Assembly: GCA_013330825.1 (NCBI GenBank)
Contig: DUHN01000039.1
Coordinates: 1 to 21,488, forward strand
DNA from: Candidatus Woesearchaeota archaeon
GTDB lineage: Archaea > Nanobdellota > Nanobdellia > Woesearchaeales > GW2011-AR4
Reading direction: 5' to 3'
Length of the DNA: 21,488 bases
Shown here: positions 4,187-21,488 of the stretch, piece by piece
Numbering within the stretch: position 1 is the stretch's first letter
Layout: each line of letters begins with the position of its first letter
Translations under genes and position numbers: made by a program
The notes under the pieces: generated by a model
Told to the model about the DNA's origin: nothing
What the model saw: only the letters and a program-made list of their open reading frames with translations
The model's database searches: none

Positions 4187-4281
4187 GCATGGTGTTCATT
4201 GCTTCATGGTTTTGTGCGGATGCAACCCTGACAGGCGCCAAAAAAAAGGAGGGCGTATCTGGGCAAGGCGTGCCGGCAATC

Positions 4282-4289
4282 TTTATAAA
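4282..4289 (+). promoter_or_regulatory. TATA box for biotin carboxylase gene
   Basis: CTTTATAAA centred 27 nt upstream of ATG 4312. This fixes the start at 4312 rather than the in-frame ATG at 4189, which lies before the promoter. Confidence 0.65.
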
Positions 4290-4311
4290 CGAAGTTCCCT
4301 TCCGCAAGAGC

Positions 4312-6189
4312 ATGGCGACGAAGGAAGAGAAGGCCGGCATGAGAAGGAAAAAGGTCCTCGTGGACTGGATCAACAGCATGCTCGCTCCCCTCGAGAAGGG
4401 CGTGGCCGCCACGAAGGATTTTGCCAGGAAGGCGCGCGAGGCGATGCCCTGGCTCTATGACCACCTCGAGGGGATGCTCGGCCACCACATTGTCAAGCCG
4501 CTCACCGACAGGGAGAAGAAAGAGGTGAGCGCCCTCCTCACTTCGACGATCATCAGGAGGCTGCCCCACATCGACGATGCGCGGCTGCAGGGCCTCCTCT
4601 CCAGGAATGACGCATCCTTCCTGGAGATACTCACCGCAGGCCTCGGCATCGACCCTTCCCGGGAGCGCAACTATTCCATCATCAGGTCGAAGAAGCTCTT
4701 CAGGAGGGTCCTCATCGCCAACAGGGGGGAGATCTCGCTGCGCGTCATCAGGGCGTGCAGGGAGCTCGGCATCGAGACGGTGGCCATCTATTCGGACCAG
4801 GAGAAGGACGCCCTCCATGTCAAGTTCGCGGACAAGGCGTACTGCATCGGCAAGTCCAAGAATTACCTCGACATCAGGAAGATTGTGAAGGCTGCGAAGA
4901 AGATGGGGGCGGATGCCATCCACCCGGGCTACGGCTTCCTTTCCGAGCGGGCGGATTTCGCGGCGCTGTGCAAGAAGAAAGGCATCAAGTTCATCGGGCC
5001 GAGCGCCAAGGAGATTGCCCTCCTGGGGGACAAGGTGGAGGCGAAGAAGCGCATGATGACCAACGGGGTGCCCATCATCATCGGGCATGCCGATCCGCTG
5101 GAGAGCAAGGAGCAGGCCGCGCAGATCGCGCAGAGCACCGGTTATCCCATCATTATCAAGGCGGCTGCCGGCGGCGGCGGGAAGGGGATGCGCATCGTGC
5201 GCAGGCAGCCCGATATCGGCGCGGCGTTCGACGCGGCGAAGTCTGAGGCGAAGAGCGCGTTCGGGGACGACACGGTCTACATCGAGAAGTACGTGGAAGA
5301 CCCGCGCCACATCGAGTTCCAGATCCTCGCGGACAGGTACGGCAACGTCATCCATTTCGGCGAGAGGGACTGCAGCATCCAGCGGAGGCACCAGAAGCTC
5401 ATCGAGGAAGCGCCTTCCCCTGCGCTGACTCCGGAGCTGCGCGAGAAGATGGGGACGGCGGCCGTCAACGCCATCAAGGCCATCGGCTACGAGGGGGCTG
5501 GCACCGTCGAGTTCCTGCTCGACAAGTCGCGGAATTTCTATTTCATCGAGATGAACACGCGCATCCAGGTGGAGCACGGCATCACCGAGCTCATCACCGG
5601 CGTGGATTTGGTGAAGGAGCAGATCAAGCTCGCGGCGGGGGCGCGGCTCTCCTACAAGCAGGAGGACATCAAGATAGATGGATGGGCCATCGAATGCAGG
5701 CTGAATGCGGAAGATCCCTCCAATGATTTCACGCCCTCGCCTGGCACCGTCGTCAACTACCTCCCTCCCGGCGGACCGGGCATCAAGATCGGCAGCACCG
5801 TGCATGCGGGATATAGGGTGTCGCCCCATTTCGATTCGCTGCTTGCCCTGCTCATGTGCCTCGGCAAGGACCGCGAGGAGGCCCTCTCGAGGATGCGCCG
5901 CGCGCTGCACGAGTACGTCATCGAGGGCGTGCAGACGACCATCCCCTTCAACGAGTTCGTCGTCAACCACCCGCAGTTCATCAAGGGGAACGTGACGACG
6001 TCATTCATCGAGCGCTACCGCGTCATGGAACACCTGAAGAAGGCGCGCGCCAGGAAGGGCGGCCCTCTTTCCAAGGAGAAGAAGATGCTCCTCGTGACGA
6101 CGGCCGTGTCGCACTACCTCAAGGACAGGCAACCGGCTCCGCAGGGATCCTCCTGGGCGAAGGCGTCGCGCCTCGACCATCTCGAGTAG
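4312..6189 (+). CDS. Biotin carboxylase subunit with N-terminal extension (acyl-CoA or pyruvate carboxylase type)
   Basis: This is an ATP-grasp enzyme that carboxylates the biotin of a carrier protein using bicarbonate and ATP. In the 625-residue product the carboxylase core runs from about residue 130 (RRVLIANRGEISLRVIRAC) to about 577. Key parts are the glycine-rich ATP loop KAAAGGGGKGM (~283-293), RDCSIQRRHQK (K362), EMNTRIQVEH (413-422) and ECRLNAEDP (461-469). Substrate- and metal-binding residues appear intact, although the usual HPVTE is HGITE here. Residues 1-129 precede the normal start of the enzyme and look helical and charged; I recognise no domain there. There is no biotin-carrier (AMKM-type) domain at the C-terminus, which ends in a ~50-residue basic tail. 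The biotin ligase gene follows after 20 nt. The start follows from the promoter at 4282-4289. Partner subunits are not in the window. Confidence 0.92.
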   Translation: MATKEEKAGMRRKKVLVDWINSMLAPLEKGVAATKDFARKAREAMPWLYDHLEGMLGHHIVKPLTDREKKEVSALLTSTIIRRLPHIDDARLQGLLSRNDASFLEILTAGLGIDPSRERNYSIIRSKKLFRRVLIANRGEISLRVIRACRELGIETVAIYSDQEKDALHVKFADKAYCIGKSKNYLDIRKIVKAAKKMGADAIHPGYGFLSERADFAALCKKKGIKFIGPSAKEIALLGDKVEAKKRMMTNGVPIIIGHADPLESKEQAAQIAQSTGYPIIIKAAAGGGGKGMRIVRRQPDIGAAFDAAKSEAKSAFGDDTVYIEKYVEDPRHIEFQILADRYGNVIHFGERDCSIQRRHQKLIEEAPSPALTPELREKMGTAAVNAIKAIGYEGAGTVEFLLDKSRNFYFIEMNTRIQVEHGITELITGVDLVKEQIKLAAGARLSYKQEDIKIDGWAIECRLNAEDPSNDFTPSPGTVVNYLPPGGPGIKIGSTVHAGYRVSPHFDSLLALLMCLGKDREEALSRMRRALHEYVIEGVQTTIPFNEFVVNHPQFIKGNVTTSFIERYRVMEHLKKARARKGGPLSKEKKMLLVTTAVSHYLKDRQPAPQGSSWAKASRLDHLE

Positions 6190-6209
6190 GGTATCCTGTT
6201 CCCCGCACC

Positions 6210-6932
6210 ATGGCTTTCTATACGCTGAAAAAATACCCGTGCGTTTCCTCGACCAATGAGCATGCCAAAAGGCTGGCTGCAGGGGGAATGCCTGAATGGA
6301 CTGCGGTCCTCGCCGGGAAGCAGCTCAGGGGAAGGGGGCGGCGCGGGAGAAGATGGGCGTCTCCTCAAGGCGGGCTTTATCTCTCCATTGTGCTGTATCC
6401 AAGGAGGACAGATCATGTGCAGGTGCTTACCTTTGCCGTTGCCCTTGCTGTGGAAGATGCCATAGGGAAGCGGCATTTTCTCAAGACATCAATCAAGTGG
6501 CCCAATGACGTCCTGCTCAACGGCAAGAAAGTGTGCGGCATCCTCACCGAGACGGCGTTTGGCAGCAGCATATCTTGCATCGTCGGCATTGGCCTGAATG
6601 CCAACCAAAAAAGGTTCTCTCCCCAGATAGCCAGCAACGCGACATCGTTGCTCATCGAGAGTGGCGAGAAAACAGACATTGATGATCTTGCGCATGATAT
6701 TCTGGTACGGCTCAAGGAATATTATGCATTTTTCCAGGACGGGAAAGAGGCAAAAGTCCTGGACGAGTGGAAAAAAAGATGCACGACACTGGGGAAGAAC
6801 GTCCGGATCGCTTCGCCTTCCGGCTCATTTTCAGGGAAAGCTGTCGGCGTCACGGAAGAAGGCATGCTGCGCGTCAGACTGCCGTCAGGAAGAATCAGGG
6901 TCGTTGCAGAAGGGGACGCGAGCGTGCGCTAG
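6210..6932 (+). CDS. birA: Biotin--[acetyl-CoA-carboxylase] ligase, class I (no DNA-binding domain)
   Basis: This enzyme activates biotin with ATP and attaches it to the lysine of a biotin carrier protein. The 240-residue product shows the biotinyl-AMP loop GRGRRGRRWASPQGGLYLS (~41-59), the KWPNDVLLNGKKVCGILTE motif (96-114), the VGIGLN strand (~125-130) and a small C-terminal SH3-like domain (GKNVRI to end). There is no N-terminal helix-turn-helix, so it is the monofunctional form and not a repressor. It begins 20 nt after the carboxylase stop, with no clear ribosome-binding site, and is probably cotranscribed with it. The stop overlaps the stop of the convergent thioesterase gene. Confidence 0.95.
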   Translation: MAFYTLKKYPCVSSTNEHAKRLAAGGMPEWTAVLAGKQLRGRGRRGRRWASPQGGLYLSIVLYPRRTDHVQVLTFAVALAVEDAIGKRHFLKTSIKWPNDVLLNGKKVCGILTETAFGSSISCIVGIGLNANQKRFSPQIASNATSLLIESGEKTDIDDLAHDILVRLKEYYAFFQDGKEAKVLDEWKKRCTTLGKNVRIASPSGSFSGKAVGVTEEGMLRVRLPSGRIRVVAEGDASVR

Positions 6933-20778: not shown

Positions 20779-21162
20779 TTACTTGACCGACAGTGCGGCG
20801 CTGGATTTCGTTGCTCCGATGCCTGGGGCGGAGTGCGCGACTGATTTCCGCGTCATCACGAACTCGCCGAGGCGGTGGCCGAGCATCTCCCCGTCGATGG
20901 CGACGACCTGGAAGCCCTTGCCGTTGTAGACCCTGATCTGCTGGCCGACCATGTCCGGAATGATGACCATGTCCCTGCAGTGCGTCTCTATGTTCGCTTC
21001 CTTCTTCCTGACGCGCACCAGGAGCCGCTTTTCAGCGTCGGTGAACCCCCTCTTGATCTTCCGCCTGTCGCGGGAGGGAACGAGCGCTGCGAACTCCCCG
21101 AGGCTCATCTTCTGGAGTTCATCGAGAGTCTTTCCGTAAAACGTGAATTCTTTTTTTGCCAT
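20779..21162 (-). CDS. rps19: Small ribosomal subunit protein uS19
   Basis: The 127-residue protein sits at the head of the small subunit and contacts uS13. It contains the archaeal FTFYGKTLDELQKMSLGEFA opening, SRDRRKIKRGF, and the family motif IRVYNGKGFQVVAIDGEMLGHRLGEF (as IRVYNGKGFQVVAI and DGEMLGHRLGEF). A GAGGT ribosome-binding site about 12 nt before ATG 21162 lies in one of two direct repeats that border the 120-nt element just upstream. Confidence 0.96.
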   Translation of the reverse strand: MAKKEFTFYGKTLDELQKMSLGEFAALVPSRDRRKIKRGFTDAEKRLLVRVRKKEANIETHCRDMVIIPDMVGQQIRVYNGKGFQVVAIDGEMLGHRLGEFVMTRKSVAHSAPGIGATKSSAALSVK

Positions 21163-21167
21163 GAGTT

Positions 21168-21314
21168 ATTTACCTCTTCATGTGTTTAGCAGCTTCTCGC
21201 TTTTGCATTCCTAACCGGCATCCGGCATTCCCCGGATGGGGCTTCCCCCTTGCCGATTTGCTTTCGTGGCCTCCAAGCTCGACTGATGCTGCTAAACACA
21301 TAATCTACCTCTTC
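21168..21314 (-). mobile_element. 120-nt palindrome-ended element with flanking direct repeats (MITE-like or structured RNA)
   Basis: Inverted ends TGTGTTTAGCAGC (21181-21193) and GCTGCTAAACACA (21288-21300) match perfectly, and one further pair (21180/21301) makes 14 bp. Outside them lie direct repeats, 11 of 12 identical: 21168-21179 and 21303-21314. The right copy covers the end of uL2 including its stop; the left copy supplies the GAGGT site of uS19. This is what insertion with target duplication would leave. Inside, the minus strand can fold into a three-way junction: closing stem 21252-21257 with 21214-21219, hairpins 21246-21249/21238-21241 (GAAG loop) and 21232-21237/21220-21225. An outer helix 21275-21282 with 21195-21202 contains tandem G-A pairs. 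No open reading frame of note. Confidence 0.6.
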
Positions 21315-21488
21315 GTCCTTCCGGTGCGGCGCGGGGCGATGCTCCCGACTTTCCTGCCCGGCGGCGCGTTCCTTGACGCCTGGGTGGGCCTTCCCTTCGT
21401 GTGGGAGCCCTTGCCGCCGAACGGATGGGCGACCGCGTTCATGGAGATGCCCGAGACTATGGGATAAAACTTGTTCTTCGCCTTCATC
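21305..21488 (-). CDS. rpl2: Large ribosomal subunit protein uL2 (C-terminal part)
   Basis: Only the last ~60 residues are in the window; the gene continues beyond the right edge. The uL2 C-terminal signature is present: [21 protein letters not shown] (with the conserved MNAVxHPFGG loop near the peptidyl transferase centre) and [20 protein letters not shown]. The stop TAG at 21305-21307 is within the direct repeat of the adjacent 120-nt element. In archaea uL2 precedes uS19, as here. Confidence 0.96.

Follow-up and report, generated by a model that had tools for sequence, protein, structure and literature searches.

The uL2–uS19 junction and its insert

The window analysed here, a stretch of 21,488 nucleotides from a Candidatus Woesearchaeota archaeon, carries on its minus strand an archaeal ribosomal-protein cluster, in which uL2 runs off the right end and is followed by uS19 and then by further ribosomal proteins (gene names were assigned from translations). 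The C-terminal part of uL2 (21305–21488, minus strand) leaves the window with its frame intact and ends in GRTKR and the stop codon, and uS19 (20779–21162, minus strand) is intact as well, with 127 aa. Between the uL2 stop (21305–21307) and the uS19 start (21162) there are 142 bp, which include an inserted element at 21180–21302 on the minus strand (123 bp if the flanking duplication is taken as 12 bp). The only open reading frames listed across these 123 bp are frames that run through from neighbouring sequence. The original prediction, that a non-autonomous element sits in an essential operon without breaking a gene, thus agrees with the state of both flanking genes. A search of the window for tRNA and tmRNA found none. 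Elsewhere in the window, a biotin-carboxylase-like gene is followed by a biotin-ligase-like frame (4189–6932, recognized from translations only).

The element is closed by a terminal stem, whose 5' arm (21285–21301, minus strand; ATGTGTTTAGCAGC perfectly paired, 17 nt with one mismatch) and 3' arm (21180–21196, minus strand) are 94% complementary and lie 88 nt apart, the outer 14 pairs being perfect as judged by eye. Outside the arms there is a direct repeat of 12 nt, 11 of them identical and 9 exact, with one copy on the uL2 side (GAAGAGGTAGAT, minus strand, 21303–21314), which includes the final uL2 codons and the stop TAG, and the other on the uS19 side (GAAGAGGTAAAT, minus strand, 21168–21179), which contains the GAGGT site upstream of uS19, a putative Shine-Dalgarno site. 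Inverted-repeat ends and a 12-bp direct repeat had both been predicted at these positions, and the direct repeat is beyond chance: when the window's flanks were compared with those of 102 other copies of the element, none of the 204 comparisons matched the window's repeat (9 exact, or 12 with one mismatch), the best of them being 7 exact or 8 with one mismatch.

Inside the terminal stem, family alignments place a short helix with tandem G.A (CGAGC at 21277–21281 and GCGAG at 21196–21200), a P2 helix (CGGCA at 21251–21255 and TGCCG at 21223–21227) and, enclosed by the latter, a conserved core AGGGGGAAGCCCCATCCGGGGAA with a CCCC/GGGG hairpin (21228–21250), all on the minus strand. The minus strand of the element folds at -56.7 kcal/mol, compared with -35.06 (sd 3.84) for 200 shuffled sequences, none of which is equally low (z -5.64). 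A kink-turn reading of the internal loop was dismissed by eye, as Watson-Crick pairs stand between the bulge and the tandem G.A.

Comparison with relatives, none of which belongs to the host genus, reveals what this junction looks like when it is empty. Among 39 genomes, 38 proved to have uS19; 30 loci were returned, and with them 28 relatives, as well as the own genome, have a readable junction. The uL2 stop and the uS19 start lie -1 to 62 bp apart in 27 of these 28 relatives (median over all 28, 3.5 bp), as against 142 bp here, in keeping with the predicted tight packing of the two genes. Five relatives (G009, G012, G016, G021 and G027) read AAGAGGTA(A/G) with the uS19 start directly after it, several read AAGAGGTA(A/G)-N-ATGGC, and the motif of the direct repeat occurs once. 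Since this motif abuts the uS19 start, the GAGGT of uS19 overlaps the end of uL2 in these relatives. If the element and one repeat (135 bp) are subtracted from the window's junction, 7 bp would remain between the two genes. The predicted course of events, an insertion after the uL2 stop whose target duplication gave uS19 its own GAGGT, is supported in that the duplicated segment carries both the uL2 stop and the GAGGT; as the junction motif was duplicated, uL2 retained its end and uS19 its site. The outlier is G020, whose junction of 175 bp is filled by something else, with no match reported by the family models. Compared with G018, which has a single TTTTTAAGT, the G020 junction contains an unrelated-looking stretch of 103 nt between TTTTCAAGT and TTTTTAAGT (8 of 9 letters alike), which may represent another insertion event at this operon junction, independent of the first.

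A dispersed family with a conserved core

No second copy had been noticed in the window, which is true of the window only; the own genome as a whole (1,157,455 bases in 83 contigs, 87.1% complete) has others. A plain DNA search, independent of any covariance model, found further pieces there at 78–92% identity, among them two matches in C11 (one of 56 bases at 86% with E 2e-12, the other of 46 bases at 87% with E 1e-9) and one in C49 (78%, E 1e-6). A covariance model (R1) made from an alignment of 10 sequences, own-genome pieces (the window copy included) and matches in relatives, hit the own genome 42 times at E<=10 and 41 times at E<0.01, the window copy counted, and at E<=0.1 it had matches in 18 of 59 genomes, including the own one. 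We therefore find further copies in both places suggested for a search, the genome itself and its relatives; the pattern named beforehand as contradicting a mobile element, an absence of copies elsewhere together with one spacer retained at this locus, did not appear. A second model (R2), made from 103 matches, hit 55 of the 371 genomes of a phylum sample (own genome counted), which represent 24 families; every genome hit is classed as the own one, of the same family or of the same order, in a sample whose share of genomes outside the order is not shown. A search of 84,980 species genomes for the core pattern AAGGGGGANGYCCCNTNCGGGGAA gave 69 stretches, 51 from Woesearchaeota, 5 from Nanoarchaeota, 6 from Nanoarchaeia and 7 from unnamed archaea according to record titles; none of the viral contigs searched has it. 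The host is accordingly an archaeon of the Woesearchaeota type. The element is therefore a member of a large, clade-specific family of Woesearchaeota and Nanoarchaeota, short and non-coding, with a conserved folded core.

Two sets of copies underlie the comparisons reported below. One comprises 103 copies: 60 of the 90 matches in relatives, all 42 own matches (including C81:20680 in spite of its E of 1.6) and one copy in C33 that was found by its ends and added by hand. The other is an independent set of 40 copies from 37 sampled R2-matched genomes, which is tied to R1 and R2 only through the search that found them.

A full copy consists of a terminal repeat on the outside (GGCTCTGTAGAAAATG, GGCTCTGTCCCGAA and GGTTGGTGCGAAATTG are examples), an inner stem of about 10 bp, the short helix with tandem G.A, and the P2 helix around the core, with an extra CGAGCGAAGCGAG-like piece on the 3' side; in part of the own-genome copies the core holds an additional insert of two hairpins (CGGAAGCGAGCTTCCG and CCACTGCGTGG). 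We detected outer repeats in 25 of the 43 own copies and in 53 of the 60 others (108 of 143 with the later set included). The window copy has none and starts just inside the position that the outer repeat usually occupies. The two outer arms of one copy agree at 94%, a value biased upward by the acceptance of arms at 11 of 14 pairs, whereas between copies the agreement of the outer ends is 45%, a value lowered by ungapped registers, and there are 84 distinct 14-mers among the 108. The inner arms follow the same trend (94% versus 63% and 59%). Despite both biases the contrast between agreement within a copy and divergence between copies is large.

Several observations concern the surroundings and variants of these copies. 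Eight contig ends in the own genome (C12, C18, C27, C33, C57, C72, C73 and C74) stop inside the family ends GGCTCTGTCCCGAA..., as expected of unresolved repeats; three of them share GGCTCTGTCCCGAAAGTCTGA and possibly belong to an unassembled autonomous element. Gaps of two N letters lie inside or at copies at C37:276, C29:26575, C75:7799 and C11:2133, where scaffolding seems to have collapsed repeats. In one relative (L358, G116:C1) two copies are adjacent in opposite orientation. Longer elements with the same outer ends and other hairpin-rich interiors, in one case of about 630 bp with no gene noticed, occur at L196 (G007:C86) and at L206, L208 and L210 (G008), which suggests that a wider set of non-coding elements uses these ends. 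Conversely, small hairpins at L041 and L064 (G028) and L043 (G026) have only the P2 and the GGGGGA-GCCCC-GGGG core of the family anatomy. The early supposition that the core loop houses the IS gene found no confirmation.

Target duplications and candidate mobilisers

In a search that accepted only paired termini, 38 of the 103 copies proved to have a target duplication, in 25 cases of 9 bp; one or two of the duplications are of low complexity, and 20 reshuffles, which concerned only the copies with a hit, gave 0–2. The independent set yielded duplications for 14 of its 40 copies (10 of them 9 bp), compared with 0–1 in 20 reshuffles. The window copy is the only one among the 103 in which the duplication lies directly beside the inner stem. 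When 318 loci (1.20 Mb including overlaps) were scanned for 9-bp duplications beside 14-bp ends, 33 elements were found, none longer than 260 bp, and hence no autonomous element in those loci.

The ends of sister copies lead to IS5-like insertion sequences. In G031, an IS of 1019 bp encodes a 305-aa protein (NF033579, IS5, 145 bits, the only one above the cut-off of 140), is flanked by a 9-bp duplication AAATAGAAG and has ends GGCTAATATGAAACCC identical to both arms of a copy in G225 (16/16). The left end of an IS in G044 (130 bits) equals the 5' arm of a copy in G041 (16/16) and its right end matches family arms at 13/16; this IS reaches the end of the locus, which leaves any duplication outside view. 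An IS of 892 bp in G020, to which one of the DDE_Tnp_1 matches had led (PF01609, in 4 of 9 genomes, the own one excluded), encodes a 276-aa DDE protein (PF01609 60.9 bits; NF033579 135.2 bits) between GGCTCAGTAGAAAATC ends, and no target duplication was seen at it. The ends of a fourth IS, in G047 (108.7 bits), match family arms at best at 13/16. In G058 there are eight partial matches, every one with ACTTTCTACAGAGCC at its end. The protein family of the G020 IS is present in 12 of 59 genomes, the own one not among them, and a search for IS5-like transposases in the own genome (87.1% complete) gave 0 matches. IS903 has GGCTTTGTTG ends and 9-bp duplications. Two other candidates were discarded: IS6, considered on account of IS6-like ends (PF13610 in 3 of 10 genomes, with 4 matches, none bounded by family ends), and IS1595 (PF12762 in 0 of 9 genomes). 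An autonomous relative with the same ends therefore exists at the level of the family (the G031 IS and the G225 copy, which come from different genomes) and none was found for the window copy. Because the outer repeats match the ends of IS5-like insertion sequences, we file the family under IS5-type MITEs; as the window copy has no outer repeat and the own genome no detected IS5-like transposase, an IS5-like enzyme is a mere candidate for the mobiliser of this copy.

Like MITEs, the element is short and non-coding and has terminal inverted repeats, a flanking target duplication and many dispersed copies. We are confident that it is a small non-autonomous transposable element of the MITE type, from a Woesearchaeota family, that was inserted at the uL2/uS19 junction. 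The observed basis of this reading is an insertion at an otherwise short junction, a flanking duplication, dispersed copies that have target duplications of their own, and ends of sister copies that match IS5-like insertion sequences. The element would have entered the junction with duplication of its target (9 bp exact, 11 of 12 bp), so that uL2 would have kept its end and stop and uS19 its own GAGGT site; an IS5-like transposase acting in trans presumably moves the family, and either such an enzyme or another one may have moved the shorter window copy. The insertion was probably tolerated because nothing is interrupted and the hairpin can be read through.

Two other explanations have been weighed against this one. 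An enzyme of another kind, which recognizes the inner ends ATGTGTTTAGC, might have moved the window copy, given that this copy lacks an outer repeat and yet has its duplication directly at the inner ends. We regard this as rather unlikely: no second copy without an outer repeat shows a duplication at its inner ends, and the candidate families screened were IS6, IS1595, DDE_Tnp_1 and IS5-like. Alternatively, the insert could be a resident structured RNA, such as a ribosomal-protein leader of this operon that controls uS19, as its stable fold and its position within a ribosomal-protein operon would allow. The conservation at the junction expected of such an RNA is not seen, as the junction is short in 27 of the 28 readable relatives and holds something else in the 28th; about forty dispersed copies lie elsewhere in the own genome, and the window has no match to any Rfam family at the gathering score, so that we consider a resident RNA highly improbable. 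Two Rfam matches below the gathering score (E 1.6 and 3.6) look like chance.

The paired stems and the core: RNA or DNA

A MITE-type element with a conserved inside raises the question of what keeps the stems and the core. One answer is that the core is a functional RNA that hitch-hikes on transposon ends, these being a mere vehicle, and that the arms are complementary because the RNA must fold. The covariation score is indeed far above that of shuffled alignments, 0.550 versus 0.204 in alignment A3 (0.028–0.081 when slid) and 0.606 versus 0.210 in A4 (0.063–0.136 when slid), with 0 of 500 shuffles reaching it in either case, but the model structure had guided the fitting of both alignments, and the copies are related. 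RNAalifold, run unaided on A4, recovers the inner stem, P2 and the core hairpin (21 pairs, 18 with both sides changed), and the tandem G.A is kept in 72 and 75 of 101 rows in A3 and in 27 of 41 in A4. G-U exceeds A-C in the core hairpin (50:20 in A3, 24:5 in A4) and, in A3, also in columns 2–10 of the inner stem (16:4). In these same columns of A4 the ratio is 2:1 and in P2 it is 5:12 (23:12 in A3), however, and cells with G-U are few in the long stems (16 and 2 in the inner stem columns of A3 and A4), fewer than one would expect of an RNA helix. A first count of the inner stem that included its outermost column (0:17 in A3, 1:2 in A4) gave 20 G-U to 23 A-C and thus no asymmetry, and the outer arms have 22 to 16. 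Nor is a bias of gene orientation clear: by crude gene calls, 29 of the 51 copies in relatives that could be classified have a co-directional gene downstream. Counts for the whole set (77 copies classifiable by crude ORF calls; upstream/downstream strands -+ 29, ++ 22, -- 16, +- 10) were set aside, because the calls placed 18 copies within an ORF (15 belong to the own genome, whose GC richness makes chance ORFs long) and gave the window copy itself a chance-ORF neighbour. All in all, a core that is a functional, hitch-hiking RNA seems rather unlikely to us.

The other answer places the cause in the DNA: the arms would stay matched because one is corrected on the template of the other, or through inversion, a transposase would in addition recognize the ends, and shared descent and mobility would conserve the core; to this we give close to an even chance. 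It accords with the agreement of the outer arms within a copy at 94% while the ends of different copies agree at 45% (the former biased upward by the threshold of 11 of 14, the latter lowered by ungapped registers), with the rarity of G-U intermediates, and with the nearly equal numbers of G-U and A-C in the outer arms. By itself it explains neither the conserved unpaired letters of the core across 24 families nor the excess of G-U in the core hairpin. An explanation by RNA only predicts more G-U in the long stems, and one by DNA only fails to predict the core hairpin or the kept tandem G.A. We infer control at the DNA level for the ends and stems, and for the small core a possible role as a folded strand; evidence for the core acting as an RNA is mixed. 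A bolder proposal, that Woesearchaeota share a clade-wide folded RNA module which rides on interchangeable IS5-type ends, sometimes on none, and is kept by an RNA function, be it in the host or in mobility, strikes us as unlikely.

Under the MITE reading, the locus is an example of how a mobile element gets into a compact, essential operon and does no harm, since the duplicated target provides one gene with its end and the following gene with its ribosome-binding site, and it brings to light a numerous family of elements in little-studied, reduced archaea. A conserved inside with changeable ends is the reverse of what is expected of a MITE, and raises the question whether the inside is selected as an RNA or whether long palindromes are re-matched at the DNA level and so mimic a covarying RNA. 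If the latter is true, it is a warning for the discovery of RNAs by covariation.

Within the part of the literature on MITEs, insertion sequences and structured RNA of Woesearchaeota and DPANN archaea that was covered, we found no report of such elements. One source describes the Sulfolobus MITEs SM1–SM4, with 25–44 copies per genome, and the ERIC and Correia elements, which are intergenic, palindromic and fold in transcripts (PMC10969869). The former resemble our family as archaeal MITEs with tens of copies per genome, in another host clade; the latter resemble it as intergenic palindromic elements that fold, although they are bacterial and their relation was judged only by the absence of Rfam matches at the gathering score in the window. 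A close likeness is to MITEs of IS5-family elements with IS903-like ends, which are also short and non-coding, with terminal inverted repeats, target duplications of about 9 bp, many dispersed copies and ends matching IS5-like insertion sequences. Unlike in those MITEs, the outer ends of our family vary widely between copies and are lacking in some, the window copy included, whereas 24 archaeal families share the inner folded module.
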